The notes under the pieces are model-generated. The model was not told the DNA's origin and made no database searches. It worked only from the letters and a program-made list of their open reading frames with translations. From the NCBI GenBank assembly GCA_964019415.1, contig OZ025868.1:14839991-14903990 (forward strand): a stretch of DNA of 64,000 nucleotides, read 5' to 3'. The translations under genes and the position numbers were made by a program. This DNA is from Ianthella basta. Lineage: Eukaryota; Porifera; Demospongiae; Verongiida; Ianthellidae. Each line of letters begins with the position of its first letter. Positions within the stretch are counted from its first letter, which is position 1. Of this stretch, positions 37,180 to 59,734 are shown piece after piece.

Positions 37180-37848
37180 ATGGCTGAACCAACATTTAGT
37201 GCAAGGGACACTCCGTGTCAGTGTACACGTCCCGAGCTGTCTGAGTTCTCAAGGTTTTTAAAGGATTCTAAATATCCGACTGCAAGTAAAGGTGAGATTA
37301 TACGTAGCTGGTTAGTTGTGCTCGTATACTTTGAAATACTCTCCACTGCATAATTTATATTTTCCAGTTCTCCGTTTCCTGTTCTTACGTTATATCTCTC
37401 AGCCCTGAAATACCTACACCTTGACGAGCGCATTCTCTCGGCCGCGGAGTGTGCAGAATGTGCCAGAAAGGGGTGGCAATGGTTCGAACGCGCTGCCATC
37501 GTCGTAGCGGCCAAGCCTCCACACGATGTCCAGCGGACACTGGACATTATTCGTGAGCAGTCTGCGATGGCTAAGGATTCGTATCGATTAGAAAGGTTAA
37601 CAGAACTCCTCGAAGGTAAGACCAACAGTTCAGGTATAGATACATATGACAAGGTTATAAATGGTGTTGTGACGGTATGCAAGTGGGTGCTTGAGTTCCA
37701 GCCATGTCAACAGCCATTGCACTGTGATATGTGTCCCGTCAGCATGCCTCTGACATCCAGTGATGCAGAATGGTGTGCACACACTTCCATTCTAGTCTTT
37801 GAGCGAGCTAATGTAGTTTATGTCCATGAAGTGGTATTGTGTGTGTAG
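37180..37848 (+). CDS. Gene C3: shared 5' exons of the large CARD-exon array
   Basis: Exon 1 is 37180-37291 (MAEPTFSARDTPCQCTRPEL..., two residues longer than C1, phase-1 donor AAAG/gtgaga). Exon 2 is 37403-37615 (213 bp, phase 1 to phase 1, donor GAAG/gtaaga). It encodes SAAECAECARKGWQWFERAA and PPHDVQRTLDIIREQS, ending LTELLE. Read-through past the donor is open to a stop at 37846-37848 with another Cys cluster (QPCQQPLHCDMCPVSMP), so a two-exon protein ending there is the alternative to splicing into the array. Differences from C1 and C2 are mostly single substitutions. Both exons are intact, making this the best candidate for a functional copy. No known family recognised in these exons. 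Confidence 0.58.
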
Positions 37849-38591
37849 CAATGGTGTAGGTTTCACACCTGCTGACATTTCTCAACCAGTGTTGAAACTT
37901 CCATGGGTTAGTGGACCCTTGTCAACACCTTAGTGAACTGGCTACACTGATTTAATAATCAACTTTAGAAACAACAAAGTCAAATGGGAGTGTTCAATCC
38001 ATGTTCTTTCCTGTACCTTCATTACCTCCTCATGTATGTGTCACAGTACAGCCAAGAGGATCTGTAGACACATTTAATTTGAAGCCAGTTCGTGTTTGTC
38101 ACATATGTAATTCAGTTTTTTGAGTAAAAGTTTATCATTGGTTAGTGGCTGTCATTCTAGTGAAGTGACGTCAGGTATTCTATGAACATGTTTCTGCCTA
38201 TTTGATATAGAATGAATGCAAGATTCGTACATGATCTCGTATGTTATCTCACATCAACCACCGTAGAATTGTCACTAACACTGTCATCCCTGCCTCTAAT
38301 TGACATTTTGTGTCTCTCGTCTGGTTATTGTAGTTTCATGTTCCCTTGTTTACACTATGCATTGGCTCCTGCTGACTCCACCAGTCTTTGCACAACCTTT
38401 ACACTGATGGTGGGTTCATCACAGAAGGTGACTCACTTTATATTGGCTACAATGTATGGGGAATAGCACTAATGCTAAGTGTGAGTGACAGCAGGTGACC
38501 TGACAGGTGATGATTAACTTAAAGGGTTGTTTGCGTGGGAATCAGAGAGCATGCAGGGTACAGTGGGAGTGTCACTATTTTCTTGTTAAAC

Positions 38592-39048
38592 TGTCATGGC
38601 GTAAAGTTCTCCCTGCCGAAATGGTTCTGCCGGGCCAAAAGCGGCAGAAAATAGCTGCTGTATAATGGTTCCGCCATACTACCAAAGTCCCTTTCGTCTC
38701 CTGATATTCGTTGTTGTGGTGTATCTTGAGCGCGCAGTGAAGACATGTCAGCCGAAATTGTCTATTTATTGAACAAAATCGTCCACTCATCGAACGAAAT
38801 CACCTATAAATCTAACCAAAGCGCCCATCTAATGAACAAAATTGCCTTTTCATCGAACGAAACATTTTATCCTGGATTGAGAATGCGTCCCAACTTGGGA
38901 AAGACGACAGGGTACAAGTACATGACCAGATGATCTGATCATCAGTCCGCGCTGGTGCTGGTGATTTAGCAGAGGGGGAACTATTTCGGTTGCTGTTTCG
39001 GTTCCGCAGGGGGCCTAATTAAGGGGGGGGGGCAAATTTGACATGACA
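38592..39048. mobile_element. MITE family 1, copy 2
   Basis: A 457-bp copy of the element at 4728-5162, flanked by AAAC at 38588-38591 and 39049-39052. The empty site, CTTGTTAAACAACTCC, is seen in other array units. It contains the same 21-bp tandem units. Confidence 0.9.
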
Positions 39049-39301
39049 AAACAACTCCAATACTTTGCATGCTTCATGCATTGATTCCCGCACAAACAGC
39101 TCCTTAAGTTTAGTGGTTCACACTTCCTTGCATGTTCTCAACCAGCACTGAACCTGGAGTTAGTAGGTCCATGTCTTTCAGTAACAATTAATGTAAGTAG
39201 CTAGGTGTCCTTACAACCAGGAAGATCTGTAGACACAACATGAAGGCACTTCACATTTGTCCCATTGAATATTCTGTTTCTTGATGAGGTGATGAATGAA
39301 T

Positions 39302-40079
39302 AGACCAGTTGCGCGTAACTCAGGAATGTTGTGGTTAAGGCGATATTGCATATGACGTCATCACTGGTGGCAGTTTAATACATTGAAAAGATAAGGGAAA
39401 AGGTGTTGCACCGGCAGCCTCGAGCGCTTCGTGCCGAATGTTCCCATTTAGATGGCTCGGCTGAATGGTTCGCACGAATACGCACTTGTCGGTCGTTGAT
39501 TGAAGTTGCTAAGGCATACGGTTACCGAGATCGAGACTGGTGAAGGGGGGATTCGCCGACATGAGCGACCAGAATGTGGTGCACGAGACTTCTTGACACT
39601 ATTTCGGCGAAAGCACCACAGCAGACACCCAGATAGAGACGTCTGGAGTGGGGCTAACCGGCGAGTAACGGCTAATAAGGCTATGACCAGCACCGTTGCG
39701 TTACCATCGCTACCTGTAGCTAACTTTGATACTTTGTAGGTGGTAGTTCAACTAGAAGCTATTCCGTGTCCAGGAGTGTCAAAAATCCTGTCTAGAAGAC
39801 TCGTTCGCCACATTTTTGTCGGCGAATCCCCCTTCACGAGTCTCGATCTCGACGACCGTAGGCCGTATCAACTTCAATCAACGACCGTCAGGTGCGTATT
39901 CGTGCGAACCATTCAGCTGAGCTATCTAAATGGGAACATTCGGCACGAAGCGCTCGAGGCTGCCGGTGCAACACCTTTTCCCCTATCTTTTCAATGTATT
40001 AAACTGCCACCAGTGATGACGTCATAAGCAATTATGATCGCGTATACTGCATTCCTAAACGCTTATACGCAACTGGTCT
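39302..40079. mobile_element. Long-palindrome (foldback) element
   Basis: Two arms of about 265 bp (39302-39566 and about 39812-40079) are imperfect reverse complements, beginning AGACCAGTTGCG and ending CGCAACTGGTCT. Each arm carries TGACGTCA (39353-39360, 40017-40024). The empty site in other units (GAATAAATTGGTCA) suggests an AT duplication. No transposase recognised. Confidence 0.85.
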
Positions 40080-41020
40080 ATTGGTCAGGATCCAGTGTCC
40101 CCTTCCCATAAAGGGAAAGGGGGTGAGGTACCATTGCGTACATTGACCTGTGCGTGGCTTAACTATAGTAGCACTCCAATTATATTCTCAGGATGGCTCA
40201 TTAACACCTGCAGTTATGGTAATTATGGGTGTGAAGTATTTCTGAAGTCCATGGGCAAATAGCCCAGCATGCAAGGTTGATGAAGCAGCATGACCTGTGC
40301 TGTTCAGCATCTGGTTTGCAAACACTTCTATATATTCTAGTATTTGAGTGAGCTAATGTAGTTTATGTCCATGAAGTGGTATTGTGTGTGTAGCAATGGT
40401 GTAGGTTTCACACCTGCTGACATGTCTCAACCAGTTTTGAAACTTCCATGGGTTTGTGGACCCTTGTCAACACTTTAGTGATAGTCAACTTTAGAAACAC
40501 AAAGTCAAATGGTAGTGTTCAATCCATGTTCTTTCCTGTACCTTCATTACCCTCATGTATGTGTCAGTACAGCCAAGAGGATCTGTAGACACATTTAGTT
40601 TGAAGCCAGTTCGTGTTTGTCACATATGCAATTCAGTTTTGTGGGTAGAAGTTTATCATTGATTAGTGGCTGTCATTCTAGTGAAGTGACGTAAGGTATT
40701 CTATGAACATGTTTCTGCCTATTTGATATAGAATGAATGCAGGATTCGTACATGATCTCGTATGTTATCTCACATCAACCACTGTAGAATTGTCACTAAC
40801 ACTGTCATCCCTGCCTCCAATTGACATTTTGTGTCTCTCGTCTGGTTATTGTAGTTTCATGTTCCCTTGTTTACACTATGCATTGGCTCCTGCTAACTCC
40901 ACCAGTCTTTGCACAACCTTTACACTGTGACCTGTAACAATACATGTCTGCCTCACATGTAGATCACTAGGTTATTATGAGCACTTTCATACACTGTTCA
41001 TTTAACACTTGTCCATGTAG

Positions 41021-41211
41021 TGCTGGCAACTCTGTACCAGGAGAAGATGATCACAGAACAAGACTTGGAAGATTTGAAAACGACTGATGTTGATTTCAAT
41101 CGCTTGGTTCGTATTCAATGTACAAAGCCGCCTGATGTGATGACCAGAACAGCTGAACTTCTGGATGGTGTAAATGAAACACGTTATGCCAATATGTTGA
41201 GAGGTCAGTGA
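41021..41211 (+). CDS. CARD-like terminal exon, array 3 copy 1
   Basis: Open; LATLYQEKMITEQDLEDL, variable segment KTTDVDFNR, LVRIQCTKPPDV, GVNETRYANMLRGQ and stop. First CARD exon downstream of C3 exon 2, about 3.4 kb away. Confidence 0.65.
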
Positions 41212-41884
41212 GTAGTGTCTATTTGTTGTTTATCTTATTGCTGTGTGGTGTGTTTTGTCTACAATGTCTGTGCACTTCACTGTGACACTCCTTAGACACC
41301 ATCTACAATAGCTTTAAGGCTGTTATGGCACTTAAGCCATTGCAAGTGTTAAGCGAAAAAGGTGGTGGTGGGTACATCACAGAAGGCGACTCACTTTATA
41401 TTGGCTACAATGTATGAGGAATAGCACTAATGCTAAGTGTGAGGGGCAGCAGGGTTGTTTGCGTGGGAATCAGAGAGCATGCAGGATACAGTGGGAGTGT
41501 CATTATTTTCTTGTTAATCAGGTCCCATACCCTGCATGCTTCATGCATTGATTCCCTCACAAACAGCCCCTTAACTTTAGTGGTTCACACTTCCTTGCCA
41601 TTTCGCAACCAGTACTGAACCTGGAGTTAGTAGGTCCATGTCTTTCAGTAACCATTAATGTAAGTAGCTAGGTGTCCTTACAACCAGGAAGATCTGTAGA
41701 CACAACATGAAGGCACTTCACATTTGTCCCATTGAATATTCTGTTTCTTGATGAGGTGACGAATAAATAGGTCAAGCATCCAATGACCCCTTCTCATAAG
41801 GAGAAAGGGGGTGAGGTACCATTGCGTACATTGACCTGTGCAAGGCTTAACTATAGTAGCACTCCAATCATACCATACTCAGGA

Positions 41885-42516
41885 TAGTCTGGCTTGCTAG
41901 ACCGTCCCATCTACGCACCCCAGGCGATAAATGGGAGGGACAGTCTAGCCGCGGTAGCGATTAGGTCACACCTTCGCATTATCAGACTCACACCTATTGT
42001 ATTGTGCAATCATAAGCAATACTGTACAGCAAATCTACGCATTTTGGCCTAACCACACGTCAGGCAAGAACTCAGATGGTACAGTACTAGCGCTTTTGCA
42101 ATTGTTGCTGCCAACCACTAGAACAGAAGTACAGGTTGGTGAAAGGCTGATAGGCTGACTGTAGTATTCTTCTCAAGTTCTAAATAAGTGAGTAGATCGT
42201 TGCAACTCTCTCCGTGGTCGGTAAGTTGGATCTCCAGCCAAAATGTGATCCAAGAGTAGAAGCGGAGGAATTGAGTGAGGGATAGCTGAGCTTCGAGCCT
42301 TTGTCAATCACCAAAGCCAGAGCACAGCCACAGCCACGAAGACCCACTCCTGTGCAACTGAAGCTCCTCAAGCCATCGAATACTATTAGCACGAATTCCT
42401 GCCAAACACATCTGATTGGTTGAATAGGTGTGAACTAGTCATTACTGCCACTAGACTGTCCCTTCCCAGCCCTAAGCACCCAACATTTTGATGGGACGGT
42501 CTAGCGAGAAAGACTA
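41885..42516. mobile_element. MITE family 2 (TAGTCTGGCTTGCTAGACCG), copy 1
   Basis: A 632-bp element with inverted ends TAGTCTGGCTTGCTAGACCG and, reversed, TAGTCTTTCTCGCTAGACCG. Flanks ATACTCAGGA and ATTCTCAGGA match at 9 of 10 bases, compatible with a hAT-type 8-bp duplication. Empty sites in array 1 lack it, so it entered before array 3 expanded. Confidence 0.85.
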
Positions 42517-42950
42517 ATTCTCAGGACAGCTCATTAACGCCTACAATTATGCTAATTATGGGTGTGAAGTATTTCTGAAGTCCATGGGCAAATATTCCAG
42601 CATGCAAGGTTGATGAAGCAGCATGACCTGTGCTGTTCAGCATCTGGTGTGCACACACTTCCATTCTAGTCTTTGAGCGAGCTAAGGTAGTTTATGTCCA
42701 TGAAGTGGTATTGTGTGAGTAGCAATGGTGTAGGTTTCACACCTGCTGACATTTCTCAACCAGTGTTGAAACTTCCATGGGTTAGTGGTCCCTTGTCAAC
42801 ACCTTAGTGAACTGGCTTCACTGATTTGATAATCACCTTTAGAAACAACAAAGCCAATTGGTAGTGTTCAATCCATGTTCATTCCTGTACCTTCATTACC
42901 CCTTCATGTAAGTAGGTGTCAGTACAGGCAAAAGGATCTGTTGACACATT

Positions 42951-43349
42951 AGCCCCGTTTACACTAGCAAGTTAAACTGGTTTGAAATGCAAATTAACTA
43001 AATCCGGGTTAAGTGTAAACGCGCTAATCCAGGTACGAAACCGGTTTAACTAAAACACCTCCGGAGGTGGTTTGAAACCGGTTTAACTAATCCAGTTGTC
43101 AGTGTAAACGCAGTAACCCGGTCTGCAGAAGTGTCTTACTTCTGTTATCATTCAGCGATGCCTCCATTGACAGAGGAAACGCCTTGAGTACAATTTCGTT
43201 GCGTTGGGAGGATTGCTTAACTCCTAGGCCAATGCGTCCAGGCGGCTCTAAACAGTTTTACGTAATCGAGTGTAAACGCCCGTAACACCGAGTCGAAAGT
43301 GGCTTAACTAAATTGATTTCGACCCACTCGCGCTAGTGTAAACGGGGCT
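42951..43349. mobile_element. MITE family 3 (AGCCCCGTTTACACTAGC), copy 1
   Basis: A 399-bp element with 18-bp inverted ends, AGCCCCGTTTACACTAGC on both sides, and a 3-bp ATT duplication. GTGTAAACG motifs repeat internally. The empty site GACACATTTAATTTG is present in other units. Confidence 0.9.
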
Positions 43350-43778
43350 ATTTAATTTGAAGCCAGTTCATGTTTGTCACGTATGTAATTGAGTTTTGTG
43401 GGTAAAAGTTTATCATTGATTAGTGGCTGTCATTCTAGTGAAGTGATGTAAGGTCTTCTATGAACATGTTTTTGCCTATTTGTTATAGAATGAATGCAGG
43501 ATTTGTACATGATCTCGTATGTTATCTCACATCAACCACTGTAGAATTGTCACTAACACTGTCATCCCTGCTCCCAATTGACATTTTGTGTCTCTCGTCT
43601 GGTTATTGGGAGTTCCATCTTCCCTTGTTTACACTATGCATTGGCTCCTGCTGACTCCACCAGTCTTTGCACAACCTTTACACTGTGACCTGTAACAACT
43701 CATGTCTGCCTCACATGTAAATCACTAGGTTATATTGAGCACTTTCATACATTGTTCACTTACCACTTGTCCATGTAG

Positions 43779-43969
43779 TGCTATCAACTCTGTGGCAGGA
43801 GAAGATGATCACAGAACAAGACTTGGAAGATTTGAAAATGACTTATGTTGATTTCAATCGCTTGGTTCTTATTCAATGTACAAAGCCGTATGATGTGGTG
43901 ACCAGAACAGCTGAACTTCTGGATGGTGTAAATGAAACAGATTGTGCCAATATGTTGAGAGGTCAGTGA
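43779..43969 (+). CDS. CARD-like terminal exon, array 3 copy 2
   Basis: Open; LSTLWQEK, variable segment KMTYVDFNR, LVLIQCTKPYDVV, GVNETDCANMLRGQ and stop. The Tyr in KPYDV is unique to this copy. Confidence 0.65.
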
Positions 43970-44840
43970 GTAGTGTCTATTTGTTGTTTATCTTATTGCT
44001 GTGTGGTGTCTTTGTCTACAATGTCTGTGCACTTCACTGTGATGCTCCCTGGACACCATCTACAACAGCCTTAAGGCTGTTATGGCACCTAAGCCATTGC
44101 AAGTGTTAAGTGATAAAGGTGGTGGTGGGTACATCACAGAAGGTGACTCACTTTATACTGTTTGTGTGGGAGTCAATGCATGAAGTCACTTCAGTTCACT
44201 GTGACACTCCTTAGACACCATCTACAATAGCCTTAAGGCTGTTATGGCACTTAAGCCATTGCAAGTGTTAAGTGAAAAGGTGGTTGTGGGTACATCACAG
44301 AAGGTGACTCACATTATATTGGCTACAATGTATGGGAAATGGCACTAATGCTAAGTGTGAGTGACAGCAGGTGAAATGAGAGGTGATGAATAATTTAAAG
44401 CCAGGGTTGGTTGCGCAGGAATCAGAGAGCATGCATGCAGGGTACAGTGGGAGTGTCATTACTTTCTTGTTAAACAATTCCTATACCCTGCATGCTTCAT
44501 GCATTGACTCCCTCACAAACAGCCCCTTAAGTTTAGTGGTTCACACATTCTTGCCATTTCTCAAGCAGTACTGAACCTGGAGTTAGTAGGTCCATGTATT
44601 TCAGTAACCATTAATGTAAGTAGCTAGGTGTCCTTACAACCAGGAAGATCTATAGACGCAATATGAAGGCACTTCACATTTGTCCCATTGAATATTCTGT
44701 TTCTTGATGAGGTGACGAATAAATTGGTCAAGCATCCAATGACCCCTTCTCATAAGGGGAAAGGGGGTGAGGTACCATTGTGTACATTGACCTGTGCAAG
44801 GCTTAACTATAGTAGCACTCCAATCATACCATACTCAGGA

Positions 44841-45468
44841 TAGTCTGGCTTGCTGGACCGTCTCATCTACGTACCCCAGGTGATAAATGGGAGGGACAGT
44901 CTAGCCGCGGTAGCGATTAGGTCACACCTTCGCATTATCAGACTCACACCTATTGTATTGTGCGATCATAAGCAATACTGTACAGCAAATCTATGCATTT
45001 TGTCCTAACCACACGTCAGGCAAGAACTCAGATGGTACAGTACAAGCGCTTTTGCAATTGTTGCTGCCAACCACTAGAACAGAAGTACAGGTTGGTGAAA
45101 GGCTGATAGGCTGACTGTAGTATTCTTAAGTTCTAAATGAGTGAGTAGATCGTTGCAACTCTCTTCGCTGTCGGTGGGTTGATCTCCAGCCAGAATGTGA
45201 TCCAAGAGTGGAAGCGGAGGAATAGAGTGAGGGATAGCTGAGCTTCGAGCCCTCGTCAATCACCAAGGCCAGAGCACAGCCACAGCCACGAAGACCCACT
45301 CCTGTGCAACTGAAGCTCCTCAAGCCATCGAATACTATTAGCACGAATTCCTGCCAAACACATCTGATTGGTTGAATAGGTGTGAACTAGTCATTACTGC
45401 CACTAGACTGTCCATTTCCATCCCTAGGCACCCAACATTATGATGGGACGGTCTAGCGAGAAAGACTA
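44841..45468. mobile_element. MITE family 2, copy 2
   Basis: Near-identical to 41885-42516 including flanks, so it was duplicated with the array unit rather than inserted independently. Confidence 0.85.
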
Positions 45469-45901
45469 ATTCTCAGGACAGCTCATTAACACCTACAATT
45501 ATGCTAATTATGGGTGTGAAGTATTTCTGAAGTCCATGGGTAAATATTCCAGCATGCAAGGTTGATGAAGCAGCATGACCTGTGCTGTTCAGCATCTGTG
45601 TGCACACACTTCCATTCTAGTCTTTGAGCGAGCTAAGGTAGTTTATGTCCATGAAGTGGTATTGTGTGTGTAGCAATGGAGTAGGTTTCACACCTGCTGA
45701 CTTTTCTCAACCAGTGTTGAAACTTCCATGGGTTAGAGGTCCCTTGTCAACACCTTAGTGAACTGGCTTCACTGATTTGATAATCACCTTTAGAAACAAC
45801 AAAGCCAATTGGTAGTGTTCAATCCATGTTCATTCCTGTACCTTCATTACCCCTTCATGTAAGTAGGTGTCAGTACAGGCAAAAGGATCTGTTGACACAT
45901 T

Positions 45902-46301
45902 AGCCCCATTTACACTAGCAAGTTAAACTGGTTTGAAATGCAAATTAACTAAATCCGGGTTAAGTGTAAACGCGCTAATCCAGGTACGAAACCGGTTTAA
46001 CTAAAACACCTCCGGAGGTGGGTTAGAAACCGGTTTAACTAATCCAGTTGTCAGTGTAAACGCAGTAACCCGGTCTGCGGAAGTGTCTTACCTCTGTTAT
46101 CATTCAGCGATGCCTCCATCGACAGAGGAAACGCCTTGAGTACAATTTCGTTGCGTTGGGAGGATTGCTTAACTCCTAGGCTAGTGCGTCCAGGCGGCTC
46201 TCAACAGTTTTATGTAATCGAGTGTAAACGCTCGTAACACCGAGTCGAAAGTGGCTTAACTAAATTGATTTCGACCCACTCGCGCTAGTGTAAACGGGGC
46301 T
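45902..46301. mobile_element. MITE family 3, copy 2
   Basis: Same position in its unit and same ends as 42951-43349; duplicated with the unit. Confidence 0.88.
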
Positions 46302-46686
46302 ATTTAATTTGAAGCCAGTTCATGTTTGTCACGTATGTAATTGAGTTTTGTGGTTAAACGTTTATCATTGATTAGTGGCTGTCATTCTAGTGAAGTGATG
46401 TAAGGTCTTCTATGAACATGTTTTTGCCTATTTGTTATAGAATGAATGCAGGATTTGTACATGATCTCGTATGTTATCTCACATCAACCACTGTAGAATT
46501 TAGTGTTGCCACGATATAGGAAAATATGTATCACGATTATTGTAGGTTTGTATCACGATATATTGTGTATCACGATATATTAATGAACAATTGGCACAGT
46601 GCTCAGATATAAGCCAAACACATAGAGTAATACAGTGAGCGTTAAAGCAAACAGGTGAGGTACATTCATACATGGTTTTCCAGCTG

Positions 46687-48566
46687 TTACTCTGGGTTTT
46701 CAAAAAGAAAGATCAGTTGGTCAGCATGCTCAGAAGTGAGCCGATTACGCTTGTCAGTGATCACATTCCCTGTCGTGCTGAATAGGCGCTCTGATGGAAC
46801 ACTGGTAGCCACGAATGAAAACATTCTTTGCACAAGCTTGCTCATTAAAGGATAGAGTTCCTTACGGCTGCTCCACCATGCAAGAGGATCTGAGTCTAGA
46901 TCAGGTGGTGATTCAGCTTTGTACATGTCTAGCTCTTTCTGCACCTTGTCTGAATGTAATGGCAAATGTTGCTGAGTGTGTGACTCAAACAACTCTCCGA
47001 TGATCTTTTCCACTGGACTTTCTTCTTCTTCGATGGTGGTTCTCCTTCTATCACTTCCTCGACTTCTGGTGGGTCTTCCTTCTCTGTCTCTTCCATGACT
47101 AGAAGCTCATCCTGCACTTCATCAATGATTCTTCTTCGGGTAAGCTGATCAAGAAAGGGGAGTTCCTTGTATCTAGGATCCAGGAATGTGGTAATATTAA
47201 GGATCCTTGCCACAGATGGGGTGCTGTAGCGTTCCTGCAAATCCCTCTTGATGTTTAGCTTCACCTCCTTCGCAACCACCGTGTCGTTCTCTTTGACTTC
47301 GAGCGTCCTGTTGACCAGCTTATACAAAAGTGGCTTGACTGTGCTCAGTGTTGGGTAACTTACTGCACCCATTGCTTCTGTAGCTTGCTGGAATGGCTTC
47401 AGGATGTCGACCAGCACTTCAATTACTGACCACTCCTCTCCTTCTGGCATCAAGTGCCTTACTTTCCCATCCATTAGCACAGCAGCAATGGGTGCCTGCT
47501 GCTCCATCAGCCTCTCTAGCATGGCCAGTGTGCTTCCCCAACGTGTCACACAGTCTTGGATGAGCATGTGTTGGGGTAGCTGGAGCATTTCCTGCTTTTC
47601 TCGTAGCTTGTACGTTTCCTTGGTGGACTTCTTAAAATGAGTAACCAGTTTCTTGCAGCGACCAAGAACTCGCTGAACTCTTGTCACACCAAGGCCTCTA
47701 CCAATAGAGAGCTGCAGCGTGTGAGCCACACATGGAAAGTGCTTGATTCCCATCAGTCGAAAGGCATTGACCATATTGCTAGCATTGTCCGTAATGCCTC
47801 CACACACCTTTCCTGCAATTTTCCAATCCTCAAACATGGAAGAAAGGACATCCTTTAGTGAGCTAGCATCGTGATCTTGCGGAATTTCAAGTGTCTGTAG
47901 ACACTTGCTGTGATGCTTGAAATCACTGTCGACAAAGTGTGCAGTTAGTGATATGTAGGCACGCTGCTGGTGCAGTGAGGTCCACAGATCAGTTGTAACT
48001 GCACAGGTCTCGACTGCTGCTAGCTGCTTTTCAATGGCAGCTCTAGTTAAGCGACACTTAGCTGGTATCACTGTGTTAGTGAAGTACGTGCGGTGTGGCA
48101 AGTTCAATCTAGGCTCAGCTAACTGCAACAAGCGCCTGAATGCTGGTTCATCAACCACACTCAAAGGCTGCAAGCCTTGGCAAATGAAATCGGCTGTGGC
48201 ATCAACCAGCTGCTTGTGCTTCGCACTTTCGTTCGAAAACGGAGTGGATTTTGCGAGCGTTCCACTGATAGTAAGCTGTGTCGACGTTGTCTTCACCGCG
48301 GAGGCTCTGCTTGGTCCAGGTTGATCGCCGCTGTCCTGTTGCTGGAGCGCGAGGTACTCCTGTGCGTGGCACCGCTGAAGATGGAACTTCAGGTTGGTGG
48401 TGTTGCCTGAGTAAGCGACAACAGCCTGACATAGTCGGCAAATGGTCTTCTTCTTGTCTGTAATCCTGCCTTTATCATCAGCGGGAAAACCGAAGTGCTT
48501 CCAGATAGCGCTCTTAGTCTGGAAGTTGGGTTTCACGATGAGGTCAAATTCGCTCGCAGTCGACAT
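46687..48566 (-). pseudogene. hAT transposase with BED finger, one frameshift
   Basis: The ORF starts at 48566. Residues 43-67 form a BED-type zinc finger (C43, C46, H62, H67). The central RNase H-like region shows TTDLWTS, TDNASNMV, CVAHTLQLS and CVTRWGSTL, typical of hAT (ZBED-like) transposases. The frame breaks in a short A-rich run near 47010-47025, after PPSKKK. The second frame (to 46687) carries the C-terminal dimerisation domain (WWSSRKELYPLMS, ATSVPSERLFSTTG). A single-base indel separates the two parts; otherwise the protein is uninterrupted. Either a recently inactivated copy or an assembly error in the homopolymer-like run. Confidence 0.93.
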
Positions 48567-48663
48567 CTCTCTACACTGACAGAAGGTAAGCTAACACTGG
48601 CCTGCAATAGAGTATCTACTACCGTTTTAGATAGTCTATAGTGTTAGGTGTTAGCTTCCCTAC

Positions 48664-48745: not shown

Positions 48746-49072
48746 ATATCACGACAGGAAGAACACTGCTTTTGTATCGCGATATTGTGTATATATCGCG
48801 ATATATCGTGTATCGCGATTATCGTGGCAACACTAGTAGAATTGTCACTAACACTGTCATCCCTGCTCCCAATTGACATTTTGTGTCTCTCGTCTGGTTA
48901 TTGGGAGTTCCATCTTCCCTTGTTTACACTATGCATTGGCTCCTGCTGACTCCACCAGTCTTTGCACAACCTTTACACTGTGACCTGTAACAATTCATGT
49001 CTGCCTCACATGTAAATCACTAGGTATATTGAGCACTTTCATACACTGTTCATTTAACACTTGTCCATGTAG

Positions 49073-49263
49073 TGCTATCCACTCTGTGCCAGGAGAAGAT
49101 GATCACAGAACAAGACTTGGAAGATTTGAAAATGACTTATGTTGATTTCAATCGCTTGGTTCTTATTCAATGTACAAAGCCGAATGATGTGATGACCAGA
49201 ACAGCTGAACTTCTGGATGGTGTAAATGAAACAGATTGTGCCAATATGTTGAGAGGTCAGTGA
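49073..49263 (+). CDS. CARD-like terminal exon, array 3 copy 3
   Basis: Open; LSTLCQEK, variable segment KMTYVDFNR, LVLIQCTKPNDV, GVNETDCANMLRGQ and stop. Lies downstream of the hAT insertion. Confidence 0.65.
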
Positions 49264-49465
49264 GTAGTGTCTATTTGTTGTTTATCTTATTGCTGTGTGG
49301 TGTCTTTGTCTACAATGTCTGTGCACTTCACTGTGATGCTCCCTGGACACCATCTACAATAGCCTTAAGGCTGTTATGGCACCTAAGCCATTGCAAGTGT
49401 TAAGTGATAAAGGTGGTGGTGGGTACATCACAGAAGGTGACTCACTTTATATTGGTTACAATGTA

Positions 49466-50137: not shown

Positions 50138-50167
50138 TATAGGGAATAGCGCTAATAGTGCTAATAG

Positions 50168-50309
50168 CGATTTGATAACGACTTTTTTTGTATTCAATCG
50201 CTTGGTTCGTATTCAATGTACAAAGCCGCCTGATGTGGTGACCAGAACAGCTGAACTTCTGGATGGTGTAAATGAAACAGATTGTGCCAATATGTTGAGA
50301 GGTCAGTGA
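50168..50309 (+). pseudogene. CARD-like exon, array 3 copy 4, 5' truncated
   Basis: Homology begins near GATTTG; the first third of the exon is missing. Segment DLITTFFVFNR, LVRIQCTKPPDVV, GVNETDCANMLRGQ and stop. No phase-1 acceptor of the usual kind precedes it. Confidence 0.6.
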
Positions 50310-51018
50310 GTAGTGTCTCTTTGTTGTTTATCTTATTGCTGTGTGTTGTCTTTGTCTACAATGTCTGTGCAGTTCACTGTGACACTCCTTAGACACCATC
50401 TACAATAGCCTTAAGGCTGTTATGGCACTTAAGCCATTGCAAGTGTTAAGTGAAAAGGTGGTGGTGGGTACATCACAGAAGGTGACTCACATTATATTGG
50501 CTACAATGTATGGGAAATGGCACTAATGCTAAGTGTGAGTGACAGCAGGTGAAATGAGAGGTGATGAATAATTTAAAGCCAGGGTTGGTTGCGCAGGAAT
50601 CAGAGAGCATGCATGCAGGGTACAGTGGGAGTGTCATTACTTTCTTGTTAAACAACTCCTATATCCTGCATGCTTCATGCATTGACTCCCTCACAAACAG
50701 CCCCTTAAGTTTAGTGGTTCACACATTCTTGCCATTTCTCAAGCAGTACTGAACCTGGAGTTAGTAGGTCCATGTATTTCAGTAACCATTAATGTAAGTA
50801 GCTAGGTGTCCTTACAACCAGGAAGATCTGTAGACACAACATGAAGGCACTTCACATTTGTCCCATTGAATATTCTGTTTCTTGATGAGGTGACGAATAA
50901 ATTGGTCAAGCATCCAATGACCCTTTCTCATAAGGGGAAAGGTGGTGAGGTACCATTGTGTACATTGACCTGTGCAAGGCTTAACTATAGTAGCACTCCA
51001 ATCATACCATACTCAGGA

Positions 51019-51646
51019 TAGTCGGGCTTGCTAGACCGTCCCATCTACGCACCCCAGGTGATAAATGGGAGGGACAGTCTAGCCGTGGTAGCGATTAGGT
51101 CACACCTTCGCATTATCAGACTCACACCTATTGTATTGTGCAACCATAAGCAATACTGTACAGCAAATCTACGCATTTTGGCCAAACCATACGTCGGGCA
51201 AGAACTCAGATGGTACAGTACTAGCGCTTTTGCAATTGCTGCTGCCAACCACTAGAACAGAAGTACAGGTTGGTGAAAGACGGATAGCCTGACTGTAGTA
51301 TTCTTAAGTTCTAAATAAGTGAGTGGATCATTGTAACCCTCTCCGCGGTCGGTCGGTCTATCTCCAGCCAGAAAGTGATCCAAGAGTGGAAGTGGAGGAA
51401 TAGAGTGAGGGATAGCTGAGCTTCAAGCCCTCGTCAATCACCAAAGCCAGAGCACAGCCACGGCCACGAAGCCCCGCTCTTGTGCAACAGAAGCTCCTCA
51501 AGCCAATGAATACAACTAGCGTGAATTCCTGCCAAACACATCTGATTGGTTGAATAGGTGTGAACTAGTCGTTACTGCCACTAGACCGTCCCTTCCCAGC
51601 CCTAAGCACCTGATGTTTTGATGGGACGGTCTAGCGAGACAGGCTA
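51019..51646. mobile_element. MITE family 2, copy 3
   Basis: Full-length copy with the same flanks and array position as the other family 2 copies, more diverged. Confidence 0.85.
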
Positions 51647-52505
51647 ATTCTCAGGACGGCTCATTAGCACTTACAATTATGCTAATTGTGGGTGTGAAGT
51701 ATTTCTGAAGTCCATGGGTAAATTGTCCAGCATGCAAGGTAGATGAAGCAGCATGACCTGTGCTGTTCAGCATCTGGTGTGCACACTTCCATTCTAGTCT
51801 TTGAGTGAGCTAATGTAGTTTATGTCCATGAAGTGGTATTGTGTGTGTAGCAATGGTGTAGGTTTCACACCTGCTGACATTTCTCAATTAGTGTTGAAAC
51901 TTCCATGGGTTAGTGGGCCCTTGTCAACACCTTAGTGAACTGGCTTCACTGACTTGATAATTAACTTTAGAAACGACAAAGTCAAATGGTAGTGTTCAAT
52001 CCATGTTCTTTCCTATACCTTCATTACCCCTTCATGTAAGTAGGTGTCACAGTACAGCCAAGAGGATCTGTTTGCACATTTAATTTGAAGCCAGTTTGTG
52101 TTTGTCGCATATGTAATTGAGTTTTGTGGGTAAAAGTTTATCATTGATTAGTGGCTGTCTTTCTAGTGAAGTGACGTAAGGTCTTCTATGAACATGTTTC
52201 TGCCTATTTGTTATAGAATGAATGCAGGATTTGTACATGATCTCGTATGTTATCTCACATCAACCACTGTAGAATCGTCACTATTACTGTCATCCCTGCC
52301 TCCAATTGACATTTTGTGTCTCTCGTCTGGTTATTTTAGTTTCATGTTCCCTTGTTTACACTATGCATTGGCTCCTGCTGACTCCACCAGTCTTTGCACA
52401 ACCTTTACACTGTGACCTGTGGCAATACATGTCTGCCTCACATGTACATCACTAGGTTATATTGAGCACTTTCATACACTGTTCATTTAACACTTGTCCA
52501 TGTAG

Positions 52506-52699
52506 TGCTATCAACTCTGTGCCAGGAGAAGATGATCACAGAACAAGATTTGGAAGATTTGAAAAAAGCCTATAGTTTGAAATTTGATCACTTGGTTCGT
52601 ATTCAATGTACAAAGCCGCCTGATGTGGTGACCAGAACAGCTGAACTTCTGGATGGTGTAAATGAAACACGTTGTGCCAATATGTTGAGAGGTCAGTGA
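52506..52699 (+). CDS. CARD-like terminal exon, array 3 copy 5
   Basis: Open, one codon longer (186 bp to the RG splice point). Variable segment KKAYSLKFDH, LVRIQCTKPPDVV, GVNETRCANMLRGQ and stop. Confidence 0.65.
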
Positions 52700-53400
52700 G
52701 TAGTGTCTATTTGTTGTTTATCTTATTGCTGTGTGGTGTATTTGTCTACAATGTCTGTGCAGTTCACTGTGACACTCCTTAGACACCATCTACAATAGCC
52801 TTAAGGCTGTTATGGCACCTAAGCCATTGCAAGTGTTAAGTGATAAAGGTGGTGGTGGGTACATCACAGAAGGTGACTCACTTTATATTGGCTACAATGT
52901 ATGGGAAATAGCACTAATGCTAAGTGTGAGTGACAGCAGATGAAACGACAGGTGATGATTAACTTAAAGGGTTGTTTGCGTGGGAATCAGAGAGCATGCA
53001 GGGTACAGTGTGAGTGTCATTACTTTCTTGTTAAACAACTCCTATACCCTGCATGCTTCATGCATTGACTCCCTCACAAACAGCCCCTTAACTTTAGTGG
53101 TTCACACTTCCTTGCCTTTTCTCAACCAGCACTGAACCTGGAGTTAGTAGGTCCATGTCTTTCAGTAACTGTTAATGTAAGTAGCTAGGTGTCCTTACAA
53201 CCAGGAAGATCTGTAGACACAACATGAAGGCACTTCACATTTGTCCCATTGAATATTCTGTTTCTTGATGAGGTATGAATAAATTGGTCAGGCTTCCAGT
53301 GAACCCTTCCCATAAAGGGAAAGGGGATGAGGTACCATTGCCTACATTGACCTGTGCAAGGCTTAACTATAGTAGAACTCCAATCATACCATACTCAGGA

Positions 53401-53590
53401 TAGTATGGATTGCTAGACTGTCCCATCTACGCACCCCAGGTGATAAATGGAGGGACAGTGTAGCCCCAGTAATGATTAGGTCACACCTTCACATTATCAG
53501 ATTCAAACCTATTGTATTGTGCAATTGATAAGCAATACTGTACAGCAAATCTATGCATTTTGGCCTAACCATACGTCAGGCGAGAACTCT
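53401..53590. mobile_element. MITE family 2, truncated copy
   Basis: The left part of family 2 only (GATTGCTAGACTGTCCCATC), then an abrupt switch to array sequence in partly inverted order (53608-53675 is the reverse complement of the AGTGTTCAATCCATGTTCTT block). Confidence 0.7.
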
Positions 53591-53607
53591 TACAATGTAT
53601 GGAGAAT

Positions 53608-53675
53608 AGTGACACCTACTTACATGAAGGGGTAATGAAGGTACAGGAAAGAACATGGATTGAACACTACCATTT
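53608..53675. repeat. Inverted fragment of the array flank
   Basis: The stretch containing GTACAGGAAAGAACATGG is the reverse complement of a block found in direct orientation elsewhere in the array (for example 52000-52050), showing a local inversion at a unit junction. Confidence 0.75.
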
Positions 53676-53980
53676 ACGCCCTTGTCGCTGTGAACTACTC
53701 CTTCATTTCTCGTCGAATGGCCTCCCTACGAAGTAGTATTAGGGACAAACGGCGAAGAAGTGTAAAGAGAAGGCCCCTAATTGACATTTTGTGTCTCTCG
53801 TCTAGTTATTGTAGTTTCATGTTCCCTTGTTTACACTATGCACTGGCTCCTAGTGACTCCACCAGTCTTTGCACAACCTTTACACTGTGACCTGTAACAA
53901 TACATGTCTGCCTCACATGTACATCACTAGGTTATATTGAGCACTTTCATACACTGTTCACTTACCACTTGTCCATGTAG

Positions 53981-54174
53981 TGCTATCACCTCTGTGTCAG
54001 GAGAAGATGATCACAAAACAAGAGTTGAAAGATTTGAAAAGGGTTAGTTTATTTGATTTCACTCCCTTGGTTCATATTCAGTGTACAAAGCCGCCTGATG
54101 TGATGACCAGAACAGCTGAACTTCTGGATGGTGTAAATGAAAGGCGTTATGCCAATATACTGAGAGGTCAGTGA
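53981..54174 (+). CDS. CARD-like terminal exon, array 3 copy 6
   Basis: Open, 186-bp class. ITKQELKDL, variable segment KRVSLFDFTP, LVHIQCTKPPDV, GVNERRYANILRGQ and stop. Flanks are near-identical to those of the next copy, but the exon is strongly different. Confidence 0.65.
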
Positions 54175-54526
54175 GTAGTGTCTGTTTGTTGTTTATCTTA
54201 ATGCTGTGTGGTGTCTTTGTCTACAGTGTCTGTGCAGTTCACTGTGACACTCCTTAGACACCATCTACAATAGCCTTAAGGCTATTATGGCACCTAAGCC
54301 ATTGCAGGTGTTAAGTGAAAAAGGTGGTGGTGGGTACATCACTGAAGGTAACTCACTTTATATTGGCTACAATGTATGGGGAATAGCACTAATGCTAAGT
54401 GTGAGGGGCAGCAGGTGTAAGAACAGGTGATGAATAACTTAAACAGTTGTTTGCATGGGAATCAGAGAGCATGCAGGGTACAGTGGGAGTGTCATTATTT
54501 TCTTGTTATACAACACCTATATAGAT

Positions 54527-54790
54527 CCCATTACCATGGTAACGGGCATCTAAACGATGATTCTAAATCTCAGAGAAGCATTCCAATTGCTTCGTGCATG
54601 ATTCTAATTCCCATACACGTACGTGGCAGGCAGAGCGTGCGTAAAGTATATATGACGTCATCACAGCCATTTTGCATCTGCTGTAGTACGCCCTTGTCGC
54701 TGCGAACTACTCCTTCATTTCTCGTCGAATGGCCTCCCTACGAAGTAGTATTAGGGACAAACGGTGAAGAAGTGTAATGAGAAGGTCCCT
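54527..54790. repeat. Repeat block R with TGACGTCA, copy 1
   Basis: About 260 bp starting near TACCATGGTAACGGGCATC, containing TGACGTCA (54653-54660) then CAGCCATTTTGCATCTGC and an Arg-rich ORF start (MASLRSSIRDK). Further copies lie at about 55537-55805, 58304-58545 and 61225-61520. Confidence 0.8.
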
Positions 54791-54992
54791 AATTGACATT
54801 TTGTGTCTCTCGTCTGGTTATTAGAGTTTCATGTTCCCTTGTTTACACTATGCATTGGCTCCTAGTGACTCCACCAGTCTTTGCACAACCTTTACACTGT
54901 GACCTGTAACTATTCATGTCTGCCTCACATGTACATCACTAAGTTATATTGAGCACTTTCATACATTGTTCACTTACCACTTGTCCATGTAG

Positions 54993-55183
54993 TGCTATCA
55001 ACTCTGTACCAGGAGAAGATGATCACAGAACAAGACTTGGAAGATTTGAAAATGACTTATGTTGATTTCGATCGCTTGGTTCGTATTCAATGTACAAAGC
55101 CGCCTGATGTGATGACCAGAACAGCTGAACTTCTGGATGGTGTAAATGAAACACGTTGTGCCAACATACTGAGAGGTCAGTGA
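54993..55183 (+). CDS. CARD-like terminal exon, array 3 copy 7
   Basis: Open; LSTLYQEK, variable segment KMTYVDFDR, LVRIQCTKPPDV, GVNETRCANILRGQ and stop. Exactly 1012 bp after the start of copy 6 and before the start of copy 8. Confidence 0.65.
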
Positions 55184-55536
55184 GTAGTGTCTGTTTGTTG
55201 TTTATCTTAATGCTGTGTGGTGTCTTTGTCTACAGTGTCTGTGCAGTTCACTGTGACACTCCTTAGACACCATCTACAATAGCCTTAAGGCTATTATGGC
55301 ACCTAAGCCATTGCAGGTGTTAAGTGAAAAAGGTGGTGGTGGGTACATCACTGAAGGTAACTCACTTTATATTGGCTACAATGTATGGGGAATAGCACTA
55401 ATGCTAAGTGTGAGGGGCAGCAGGTGTAAGAACAGGTGATGAATAACTTAAACAGTTGTTTGCATGGGAATCAGAGAGCATGCAGGGTACAGTGGGAGTG
55501 TCATTATTTTCTTGTTATACAACACCTATATAGATC

Positions 55537-55805
55537 CCATTACCATGGTAACGGGCATCTAAACGATGATTCTAAATCTCATTGAAGCATTCCAATTGCT
55601 TCGCGCGTGATTCTAATTCCCATACACGTACGTGGCAGGCAGAGTGTGTGTAAAGTATATACGTATAACGTCATCACAGCCATTTTGCATCTGCTGTAAT
55701 ATGCCCTTGTTGCTGCGAACTACTCCTTCATTTCTCGTCGAATGGCCTCCCTACGAAGTAGTATTAGGGACAAACGGCGAAGAAGTGTAATGAGAAGGCC
55801 CCTAA
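55537..55805. repeat. Repeat block R, copy 2
   Basis: Near-identical to 54527-54790, but the TGACGTCA site is mutated to TAACGTCA. Confidence 0.8.
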
Positions 55806-56004
55806 TTGACATTTGTGTCTCTCATCTGGTTATTAGAGTTTCATGTTCCCTTGTTTACACTATGCATTGGCTCCTAGTGACTCCACCAGTCTTTGCACAA
55901 CCTTTACACTATGACCTGTAACAATTCATGTCTGCCTCACATGTACATCACTAGGTTATATTGAGCACTTTCATACATTGTTCACTTACCACTTGTCCAT
56001 GTAG

Positions 56005-56198
56005 TGCTAGCAACTCTGTGCCAGGAGACGATGATCACAAAACAAGAGTTGGAAGATTTGAAAAGTGATTTTTTATTTGATTTCGATCGCTTGGTTCATA
56101 TTCAATGTACAAAGCTGCCTGATGTGGTGACCAGAACAGCTGAACTTCTGGATGGTGTAAATGAAACACTTTGTGCCAATATGTTGAGAGGTCAGTGA
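56005..56198 (+). CDS. CARD-like terminal exon, array 3 copy 8
   Basis: Open, 186-bp class. LATLCQETMITKQELEDL, variable segment KSDFLFDFDR, LVHIQCTKLPDVV, GVNETLCANMLRGQ and stop. Confidence 0.65.
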
Positions 56199-56900
56199 GT
56201 AGTGTCTCGTTGTTGTTTATCTTATTGCTGTGTGGTGTCTTTGTCTACAATGTCTGTGCAGTTCACTGTGACACTCCTTAGACACCATCTACAATAGCCT
56301 TAATGCTGTTATGGCACCTAAGCCATTGCAAGTGTTAAGCGAAAAAGTTGGTGGTGTGTACATCACAGAAGGTGACTCACTTTATATTGGCTGCAATGTA
56401 TTGGGAATAGCACTAATGCTAAGTGTGAGCGACAGCAGGTGACCTGACAGGTGATGAATAACTTAAAGGGTTGTTTGCATGGGAATCAGAGAGCATGCAG
56501 GGTACAGTGGGAGTGTCATTATTTTCTTGTTAAACAACTCCTATACCCTGCATGCTTCATGGATATATTCCCTCACAAACAGCCCCTTAAGTTTAGTGGT
56601 TCACACTTCCTTGCCGTTTCTCAACCAGTACTGAACCTGGAGTTAGTATGTCCATGTCTTCCAGTAACCATTAATGTAAGTAGCTAGGTGTCCTTACAAC
56701 CAGGAAGATCTGTAGACACAACATGAAGGCACTTCACATTTGTCCCATTGAATATTCTGTTTCTTGATGAGGTGATGAATAAATTGGTCAAGCATCCAAT
56801 GACCCCTTCTCATAAGGGGAAAGGGGGTGAGGTACCATTGCGTACATTGACCTGTGCAAGGCTTAACTATAGTAGAACTCCAATCATACCATACTCAGGA

Positions 56901-57531
56901 TAGTCTGGCTTGCTAGACCGTCCCATCTACGTACCCCAGGCGATAAATGGGAGGGACAGTCTAGCCGCGGTAGCGATTAGGTCACACCTTCTCATTATCA
57001 GACTCACACCTATTGTATTGTGCAATTGATAAGCAATACTGTACAGCAAATCTACGCATTTTGGCCGAACCATACGTCAGGCGAGAACTCAGATGGTACA
57101 GTACAAGCGCTTTTGCAGTTGCTGCTGCCAACCACTAGAACAGAAGTACAGGTGGTGAAAGACGGATAGCCTGACTGTAGTATTCTTCTCAAGTTCGAAA
57201 TAAGTGAGTGGATGATTGCAACCCTCTCCGCGGTCGGTCGGTCTATCTCCAGCCAGAAAGTGATACAAGAGTGGAAGTAGAGGAATAGAGTGAGGGATAG
57301 CTGAGCTTCAAGCCCTCATCAATCACCAAAGCCAGAGCACAGCCATGGCCACAAAGACCCACTCTTGTGCAACTGAAGCTCCTCAAGCCAATGAATACAA
57401 TTAGTGTGAATTCCTGCCAAACACATCTGATTGGTTGAATAGGTGTGAACTAGTCGTGACTGCTGCTAGACCTTCCCTTCCCAGCCCTAAGTGCCTTGCA
57501 TTTAGATGGGAAGGTCTAGCGAGCAAGACTA
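56901..57531. mobile_element. MITE family 2, copy 4
   Basis: Full-length copy in the usual array position. Confidence 0.85.
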
Positions 57532-58303
57532 ATCTCAGGATGGCTCATTAACACCTACAATTATGCTAATTGTGGGTGTGAAGTATTTCTGAAGTCCATG
57601 CACAAATGTCCAGCATGCAAAGTTGATGAAGCAGCATGACCTGTGCTGTTCAGCATCTGGTGTGCACACACTTTCATTCTAGTATTTGAGCGAGCTAATG
57701 TAGTTTATGTCCATGAAGTGGTATTGTGTGTGTAGCAATGGTGTAGGTTTCACACCTGCTGACATTTCTCAACCAGTGTTGAAACTTCCATGGGTTAGTG
57801 GACCCTTGTCAACACCTAAGTGAACTGGCTACACTGATTTGATAATTAACTTTAGAAACAACAAAGTCAAATGGGAGTGTTCAATCCATGTTCTTTCCTG
57901 TACCTTCATTACCCCTTCAAGTAAGTAGGTGTCAGTACAGCCAAGAGGATTTGTAGACACATTTAATTTGAAGCCAGTTCTTGTTTGTCACATATGTAAT
58001 TGAGTTTTGTGGGTAAAAGTTTATCATTGATTAGTGGCTGTCATTCTAGTGAAGCGACGTAAGGTCTTCTATGAACATGTTTCTGCCTATTTGTTATAGA
58101 ATGAATGCAGGATTCGTACATGATCTCGTATGTTATCTCACATCAACCACTGTAGAATTGTCACTAACACTGTCATCCCCACCTCCAATTGACATTTTGT
58201 GTCTCTCGTCTGGTTATTGGAGTTTCATGTTCCGTTGTTTACACTATGCATTGGCTCCTGGTGACTCCACCAGTCTTTGCACAACCTTTACACTGTGACC
58301 TGT

Positions 58304-58545
58304 CTAAACGATGATTCTAAATCTCAGAGAAGCATTCCAATTACTTTGCGCATGATTCTAATTCCCATACACGTACGTGGCAGGCAGAGCGTGCGTAAAG
58401 TATATATGACGTCATCACAGCCATTTTGCATCTGCTGTAATACGCCCTAGTCGCTGTGAACTACTCCTTCATTTCTAGTCGAATGGCCTCCCTACGAAGT
58501 AGTATTAGGGACAAACGGCGAAGAAGTGTAATGAGAAGACCCCTA
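58304..58545. repeat. Repeat block R, copy 3
   Basis: Starts at TCTAAACGATGATTC directly after a unit block; contains TGACGTCA at 58407-58414. Confidence 0.78.
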
Positions 58546-58746
58546 ATTGACATTTTGTGTCTCTCTTCTGGTTATTGTAGTTTCATGTTCCCTTGTTTAC
58601 ACTATGCATTGGCTCCTGGTGACTCCACCAGTCTTTGCACAACCTTTACACTGTGACCTGTAACAATTCATGTCTGCCTCACATGTACATCACTAGGTTA
58701 TATTGAGCACTTTCATACACTGTTCATTTAACACTTGTCCATGTAG

Positions 58747-58937
58747 TGCTATCAACTCTGTGCCAGGAGAAGATGATCACAGACCAAGAGTTGGAATATT
58801 TGAAAATGAATGTTTTTGTTTTTGATCGCTTGGTTCGTATTCAACGTACAAAGCCGCCTGATGTGGTGACCAGAACAGCTGAACTTTTGGATGGTGTAAA
58901 TGAAACACATTATGCCAACAAATTGAGAGGTCAGTGA
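58747..58937 (+). CDS. CARD-like terminal exon, array 3 copy 9
   Basis: Open; ITDQELEYL, variable segment KMNVFVFDR, LVRIQRTKPPDVV (Cys replaced by Arg), GVNETHYANKLRGQ and stop. Confidence 0.63.
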
Positions 58938-59615
58938 GTAGTGTCTCTTTGTTGTTTATCTTATTGCTGTGTGGTGTCTTTGTCTACAATGTCTGTGCAG
59001 TTCACTGTGACACTCCTTAGACACCATCTACAATAGCCTTAAGGCTGTTATGGCACTTAAGCCATTGCAAGTGTTAAGTGAAAAGGTGGTGGTGGGTACA
59101 TCACAGAAGGTGACTCACTTTATATTGGCTACAATGTATGGGGAATGGCACTAATGCTAAGTGTGAGCGACAGCAGGTGAAATAACAGATGATGAATAAA
59201 TTAAAGGGTTGGTTGCGCAGGAATCAGAGAGCATGCAGGGTACAGTGGGAGTGTCATTATTTTCTTGTTAAACAACTCCTATATCCTACATGCTTCATGG
59301 ATTGATTCCCTCACAAACAGCCCCTTAAGTTTAGTGGTTCACACTTCCTTGCCATTTTGCAATCAGCACTGAACCTGGAGTTAGTAGGTCCATGTCTTTC
59401 AGTAACCATTAATGTAAGTAGCTAGGTGTCCTTACAACCAGGAAGATCTGTAGACACAAAATGAAGGCACTTCACATTTGTCCCATTGAATATTCTGTTT
59501 CTTGATGAGGTGATGAATAAATTGGTTAAGCATCCAATGACCCCTTCTCATAAGGAGAAAGGGGGTGAGGTACCATTGCGCGTACATTGACCTGTGCAAG
59601 GCTTAACTAAGTAGC

Positions 59616-59734
59616 ACTCCAATCGCTTGGTTCGTATTCAATGTACAAAGCCGCCTGATGTGGTGACTAGAACAGCTGAACTTCTGGATGGTGTGAATGA
59701 AACAGATTGCGCCAATATATTGAGAGGTCAGTGA
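59616..59734 (+). pseudogene. CARD-like exon, array 3 copy 10, 5' truncated
   Basis: Only the second part of the exon remains (RLVRIQCTKPPDVV onward, GVNETDCANILRGQ and stop). It is joined to a flank block through the shared sequence CAATC (TAGCACTC-CAATC-GCTTGG). Confidence 0.6.

Follow-up and report, generated by a model that had tools for sequence, protein, structure and literature searches.

An array of in-frame CARD-like exons in a tandem family of predicted ZU5–death-domain genes of the sponge Ianthella basta

Array genes in the window and in the surrounding cluster

The window analyzed here is a stretch of 64,000 nucleotides from the sponge Ianthella basta (contig OZ025868.1, C1:14839991–14903990 in our numbering), and the genome that we searched with its features comprises 209 Mb in 96 contigs. 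The window contains two genes, which we refer to by their exon clusters 1 and 3, in which two 5′ exons (E1 and E2) are followed by a row of homologous array exons (E3); a further homologous exon found in relatives is labeled E4. An earlier note on this DNA had described cluster 3 as two 5′ exons with phase-1 donors and ten array copies, eight of them full length, with the acceptor tccatgtag, phase 1, open frames, and length differences of whole codons. All of this anatomy was borne out. The eight full copies share acceptor, phase, and open frame, measure 183 nt (five copies) or 186 nt (three copies) to the donor, and carry seven distinct variable segments among them, while the remaining two lack the acceptor and the 5′ part. 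The array of homologous in-frame exons is real. The earlier note had overlooked the cluster-1 array, an orphan E1/E2 pair near 27984, and the ZU5 and death-domain-like exons. The cluster-3 copies match by tblastn with E values of 2e-17 to 3e-38, beyond what chance would give. Acceptor and phase are identical in all 11 full E3 copies of the window, and the multi-kilobase units that contain them have been duplicated as wholes, introns included.

Table 1. Exons of the two array genes, in window coordinates
Feature	Positions	Strand	Remarks
E1, cluster-1 gene	8761..8866	+
E2, cluster-1 gene	8974..9186	+
E3.1, cluster 1	11006..11188	+	array exon
E3.2, cluster 1	12875..13057	+	array exon, donor AGAG/GTTAGT
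E3.3, cluster 1	16401..16583	+	array exon
Linker exon, cluster 1	17491..17552	+	ESQLASTLEEVSGSPPKTDLE; phase-1 acceptor, phase-0 donor; borders by eye
Linker exon, cluster 1	17880..17946	+	VSSQQAGGGSDPPERGDTSDIQ; phase 0 to 1; borders by eye
ZU5 exon, cluster-1 gene	18697..19295	+
Death-domain-like exon, cluster-1 gene	20482..20799	+	extent is that of the homologous stretch
E1, cluster-3 gene, first coding exon	37180..37291	+	ATG start, MAEPTFSARD...PTASK, phase-1 donor AAAG/GTGAGA
E2, CARD-like body exon, cluster-3 gene	37403..37615	+	phase 1-1, donor GAAG/GTAAGA
E3.1, cluster 3	41021..41203	+	phase 1-1, donor AGAG/GTCAGT
E3.2, cluster 3	43779..43961	+	array exon
E3.3, cluster 3	49073..49255	+	array exon
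E3 copy, 5′-truncated	50166..50303 (about)	+	without acceptor
E3.4, cluster 3	52506..52691	+	array exon, 186 nt
E3.5, cluster 3	53981..54166	+	array exon, 186 nt
E3.6, cluster 3	54993..55175	+	array exon
E3.7, cluster 3	56005..56190	+	array exon, 186 nt
E3.8, cluster 3	58747..58929	+	array exon
E3 copy, 5′-truncated	59621..59728 (about)	+	without acceptor
Short linker exon after cluster-3 array	63698..63739	+	AMSTEFEVEPVAFS; phase 1-1; flank homology, borders by eye

Both arrays lead into further exons. The first exons after the arrays of clusters 1 and 3 have phase-1 acceptors, matching the phase of the E3 donor. Cluster 3 continues beyond the window through linkers (the one at 63698 and those in locus L033, which holds a second copy of the 63698 linker at L033:2594-2656) first to a ZU5 exon (L033:3995) and then to a stretch resembling a death domain (L033:7810). 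The cluster-1 linker at 17491 has a close counterpart in L033 and positional counterparts in loci L020 and L021, and the linker at 17880 has counterparts in all three. A crude scan for additional phase 1-1 exons found none in two stretches of the window and, in L033, only a spurious fusion of two known linkers. In L020 and L021, E2, E3, E4, and ZU5 lie in one stretch, and the E4 acceptor is phase 1 in L020 and L022.

We use the label ZU5 because the Pfam cut-off for PF00791 is exceeded by two homologues, one in the L020 gene (C1:4736208, 64% identical) and one at C1:4574090 (62%); the window and L033 copies score under it, and a PDB profile search with the ZU5 alignment found no ZU5. Within the window, the death domain stays under its Pfam cut-off: the stretch at 20482-20799 scored 17.2 bits against the death domain (PF00531; cut-off 22.6), and no match at E 0.01 was obtained for 2009-2326, 3388-3633, or the L033 copy.

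The window lies in a tandem cluster of about 480 kb (14.59–15.07 Mb). Because the genome searches scored the best 150 of 305 (E3), 264 (E2), and 230 (ZU5) candidates, the counts are lower bounds: at least 18 E2, at least 64 E3 (61 full, 3 truncated), and at least 15 ZU5, all on the plus strand. E3 occurs in runs of one to nine full copies, and 14 of the 15 runs are followed by ZU5; the remaining run, a single E3, is followed by another E2. The element after ZU5 is E2 in 12 of 14 cases. When the cluster is divided into its 15 intervals ending in ZU5, two or more full E3 are present in 14 and E2 in 13; several intervals have a second E2. Of the 16 E1 matches, all but one precede an E2 match by no more than 250 bp. 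None of the 61 full E3 copies contains a stop, both cluster matches with a stop being truncated copies. Further E3 rows lie outside the cluster, some of them mixing E3 and E4. From this layout, the genes of the cluster are predicted to be a tandem family of ZU5–death-domain genes. We considered membership in the NLR family and discarded it: among 102 NACHT matches (the best 102 of 469 candidates), none falls in the cluster and all lie elsewhere.

Two observations concern the 5′ exons. The E1/E2 pair at 27802-28199 is not followed by any full array exon; at 29028-29083 lies a fragment of array intron that is interrupted near the acceptor. In three copies of E2 (37618-37848, after 9186, and after 28197), no stop interrupts the frame for about 51 to 77 codons beyond the donor, which may reflect intron retention or chance in young duplicates.

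CARD homology and divergence of the array exons

To place the array exons among known folds, we built one profile from 53 of 72 distinct E3 sequences and nine E4 (A1, 62 members), a second from E2, E4, and E3 mixed (A2, 27 members), and a reference set from 11 of 14 CARD loci of the same genome (A3; one locus with a stop and two near-duplicates were dropped). The reference set retrieves Apaf-1, caspase-9, and other CARDs from the PDB, along with some TAL-effector matches. Aligned with hhalign to these 11 CARDs, A1 gave 97.4% and A2 97.7%, while control alignments of A1 to death domains (5 rows) and ZU5 (4 rows), both shallow sets run with A1 only, gave 0.1% and 0.3%. Against the PDB, A2 matched 2mn4, a design on the Apaf-1 CARD entry 1cy5 as template, with an E value of 9e-4 (RAIDD 0.82); A1 alone gave nothing significant (best 0.14, an AIM2 chain at 0.37). 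The Pfam profile PF00619 matched neither the joined E1-E2-E3 product nor one scanned E3, none of the 27 A2 members, and one of the 62 A1 members weakly (E 0.0089); 14 of the 62 touch the unrelated Spo16_C (best 0.011).

The aligned region spans CARD columns 20-84, which correspond to helices 2-6. At the level of profiles, E3 thus reads as a CARD homologue over helices 2-6. The earlier description of the array as CARD-like therefore stands as a profile-level match and fails for PF00619 and for helix 1, and its reading of the joined product as helices 1 and 2 is replaced by an alignment of E3 to helices 2 to 6. A six-helix bundle including helix 1 was not recovered, the alignment beginning at column 20 with E1 not placed on helix 1. 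E1 itself ends where helices 1 and 2 adjoin and might provide helix 1.

We then compared 21 distinct array units with their introns (23 units less two L004 duplicates of L003 units), drawn from the window and from L002, L003, L006, L007, L008, and L028 and so a sample of the 61 full cluster copies. Within the exon, neither of the two gap patterns is off-frame, both being whole codons, while 15 of 17 in the flanking introns are off-frame. Divergence is concentrated in a nine-codon segment (residues 20-28), where it reaches 0.232; the remaining exon gives 0.066 and 0.073, and the introns beside E3 give 0.045 and 0.069. Relative to the more divergent intron, the bootstrap ratio for this segment is 3.4 (2.1-5.6), and windows over it rank at the top of 154 sliding windows. 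The same segment diverges by 0.25 among the 11 window copies and by 0.261 among the eight of cluster 3. For the 142 of 210 pairs with segments of equal length, nonsynonymous divergence (dN) is 0.237 and synonymous divergence (dS) 0.143 (dN/dS 1.65), and dN/dS is about 1.0 elsewhere in the exon. Among 53 E3 sequences genome-wide, residues 20-28 are again the most variable, with length changes, and residues 53-59 vary too. These patterns indicate that the copies are kept in frame under selection while the nine-codon segment diversifies.

Position and splicing of the array exons

The earlier note had modeled the copies as alternative terminal exons: every copy would bring its own stop, and with it a 3′ end. 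We evaluated this model on 77 E3 places, of which we kept the 70 complete ones and dropped 7 with an incomplete 5′ end or two incomplete ends; the counts leave out loci L001, L005, and L031, which lie inside the window, and L003, and donor conservation covers copies matched up to their final or penultimate residue. The string LRGQ-stop that the note reported is present in all eight full cluster-3 copies, an in-frame TGA directly follows each of these exons, 61 of the 70 relatives have an in-frame stop within one codon after the exon, and 4 of the 11 window copies have AATAAA at a distance of 265-590 nt on their 3′ side, all of which would suit terminal exons. However, all 70 relatives keep a phase-1 GT, placed behind the first base of the final codon, so that conservation is higher for the donor than for the stop; the nine relatives outside the 61 reach their stop 2 to 26 codons further on, behind donors such as GTGAGT, GTGAGG, GTGAGA, and GTATAC. 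AATAAA or ATTAAA occurs within 300 nt downstream of only 1 of the 11 window copies (within 600 nt, of 4), and a conserved stop coupled to a 3′-end signal was thus not seen for E3. Because the GT is kept in all 70 relatives while the stop is not, and because exons in matching phase lie downstream, with ZU5 following nearly every run, we rejected the terminal reading, which we now consider highly improbable. On sequence grounds, the array exons are very probably internal, and LRGQ-stop reads as read-through of the donor AGAG/GTCAGTGA into the intron: in frame, the window E3 end gives GGT CAG TGA, and the copy at 12875 gives GGT TAG. Two variants of the donor were considered and set aside. A conserved tandem donor, with a second GT four bases on (GTNNGT), is contained in any GTRAGT donor (E4 26/26), and a phase-2 donor at that second GT would bring a stop into frame in the downstream exons that we inspected by eye (E3, E4, and linkers).

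A second possibility is that each unit is a separate small gene, or that the rows are debris of segmental duplication whose copies are not used. The duplication of multi-kilobase units together with their introns is compatible with this, as are the truncated copies, the orphan E1/E2 pair, and the presence of a transposon in the region. Yet E1 stands by E2 (15 of 16 within 250 bp) and not by each E3, no stop interrupts the 61 full cluster copies, none of the 21 aligned units has an off-frame indel, and divergence is focused on one coding segment. We give this explanation very little weight.

What remains to be weighed is how an internal array would be read, and the earlier suggestion that one shared 5′ part could be paired with many CARD variants stands as a possibility. 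In the explanation that we consider best overall, at about an even chance, internal E3 arrays belong to ZU5–death-domain genes and are spliced in series: E1 and E2 would be followed by usually two to nine symmetric phase 1-1 E3, linkers, ZU5, and a death-domain-like exon. By default the E3 copies would be joined in a row, yielding a protein with several CARD-like modules, each showing a different variable segment. The segments presumably bind different partners or ligands upstream of ZU5–death-domain signaling, and an immune function may be envisaged.

We favor splicing in series because the exons have symmetric phase, ordinary donors, and open copies, because E2, E3, and E4 lie in one gene, and because no clear intron pairing was found; mixed E3/E4 rows elsewhere also fit repeats. 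Even so, we hold the serial reading of the array itself at roughly even strength. The same internal array could instead contribute one or a few E3 per transcript by exclusive or regulated choice, in the manner of Dscam, which we regard as a serious possibility of somewhat less than even probability. Such a choice would suit the single acceptor and phase of all 11 full window copies, which together define one slot, the strong diversification of a single segment (seven versions in eight cluster-3 copies), and the multiplication of E3 within a gene where ZU5 is single and E2 is single in most intervals. The absence of helix 1 from E3 points the same way and permits a sharper form, in which E1 provides helix 1 and a single body, either E2 or one of the E3, is spliced to it. 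Donor strength leans slightly toward choice as well: with loci L001, L005, and L031 again omitted, the mean match to the U1 consensus (of 9) is 6.6 for E3 (n=71), 7.0 for E4 (n=26), and 8.2 for E2 (n=6). Against choice, every E3 is a whole number of codons long, which leaves nonsense-mediated decay no means of enforcing exclusivity; homologous E2, E3, and E4 occupy one stretch in relatives; E3 and E4 are mixed in rows; none of the full cluster copies has a stop; and E1 does not align to helix 1. Docking–selector pairing between introns was not clearly above shuffles in a low-power test (2 of 8 selectors, 3 or 12 shuffles), where 1 of 12 shuffles also attained the single high value (-46), and cluster 1 fell inside its own shuffles.

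Several observations weigh against the serial explanation. The E3 donors, although of ordinary make-up, are the weakest of the three exon types, and the introns between copies measure about 0.8-5 kb. Lacking helix 1, strings of E3 may not fold as independent CARDs, and the joined E1-E2 profile (5 rows) reached only 39.8% against the CARD set, with E1 unaligned. The E4 acceptor in L021 is AA, not AG; no E2 match accompanies the seven E3 of one cluster interval, and one ZU5 stands without E2 or E3. The constant exons, moreover, are those that the genomic layout suggests. Finally, dS in residues 20-28 (0.143) is twice the value of about 0.07 in the remaining exon, and the signal of the segment may owe something to age or to conversion boundaries. 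The balance between series and choice is near even, and we keep splicing in series as the default.

Other features and comparison with known systems

Mobile elements occur within and beside the arrays. The intron between the exons at 43779 and 49073 contains hAT-type transposase open reading frames (46687-48590, minus strand) with a BED zinc finger and a hAT dimerization region, and the intron between E2 and the first cluster-3 array exon contains an inverted repeat (39345-40032; 205-nt arms, 94% complementary) that looks like a small transposon. A reverse transcriptase fragment (RVT_1) lies at 6176-6802 on the minus strand. Between the array genes are ZPR1 zinc-finger and jelly-roll stretches (32276-32692, 35263-35715, and 35919-36290), with a similar open reading frame at 24972-25433. 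A single open reading frame of 369 aa (30499-31608, minus strand) has, by eye, a hydrophobic stretch near its first methionine and a weak match, under the cut-off, to COLFI (collagen C-terminal). Rfam gave no match in the window at gathering scores. Elsewhere in the genome, a frame of 1745 aa at C1:12121908 was discarded, being a stretch of N. Genome-wide, NACHT (at least 102 matches; 102 scored of 469 candidates), CARD (at least 110; 150 scored of 367), and the death domain (at least 150; 150 scored of 437) form large families. Contig C96 looks mitochondrial, its cox1 match containing nine in-frame TGA codons; under code 4, we take it to carry a cox2-like frame, trnK, and a short frame after cox1, and nad3-like and nad4L-like frames before it, a content that would suit a demosponge.

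CARDs are usually signaling adaptors rather than diversified surfaces. The presence of 61 open CARD-body exons, with a segment diverging about 3.4 times as much as the flanking introns in the 21 units measured, points to a death-fold module in which selection favors diverse recognition, here in an early-branching animal lineage. If correct, whether in series or by choice, one gene could yield many-module or many-version signaling proteins. Intracellular sensor diversification by exon arrays in animals without lymphocytes thereby becomes testable, as does whether the arrays are read in series or by choice.

In a study of the sponge NLR repertoire, death-fold and CARD genes make up large families of a sponge genome (PMC12909245). 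By comparison with the NLRs treated there, the cluster has no NACHT among the 102 matches (best 102 of 469 candidates) and instead appears to consist of ZU5–death-domain genes. Among the listed titles and opening lines of abstracts in the open-licence literature, we found no description of CARD-coding exon arrays or of this gene family. Relative to the CARD itself (PF00619, as in Apaf-1), E3 shares a profile match over helices 2-6 and the 2mn4/1cy5 match in the PDB, but helix 1 lies outside it and PF00619 matched neither the joined window product nor the scanned E3. ZU5 is combined with death folds in PIDD, UNC5, ankyrins, and the FIIND proteins CARD8 and NLRP1. Our genes resemble these in carrying a CARD-like part, ZU5, and a death-fold-like part in one gene; they differ in that the CARD-like part is N-terminal and multiplied by exon.

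In Dscam arrays, rows of homologous exons lie between shared exons, each encoding part or all of one domain, and are diversified. Arthropod Dscam is presented as an exon-array gene (PMC3236188, PMC5465998). The rows described here share with Dscam this arrangement of diversified, homologous exons of equal phase between shared exons. If splicing selects one copy, the family might amount to a cytosolic counterpart of Dscam, in which each of some dozen tandem genes would splice a helix-1 head to a single CARD body chosen from as many as ten diversified ones, ahead of a ZU5–death-domain tail, a repertoire that we consider rather unlikely. The two systems also differ: exclusive use is putative here, E3 lengths are multiples of three, and the low-power test gave no docking or selector pairing. 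Moreover, the modules are CARD-like here and Ig in Dscam, and the sequence suggests a cytosolic signaling protein.

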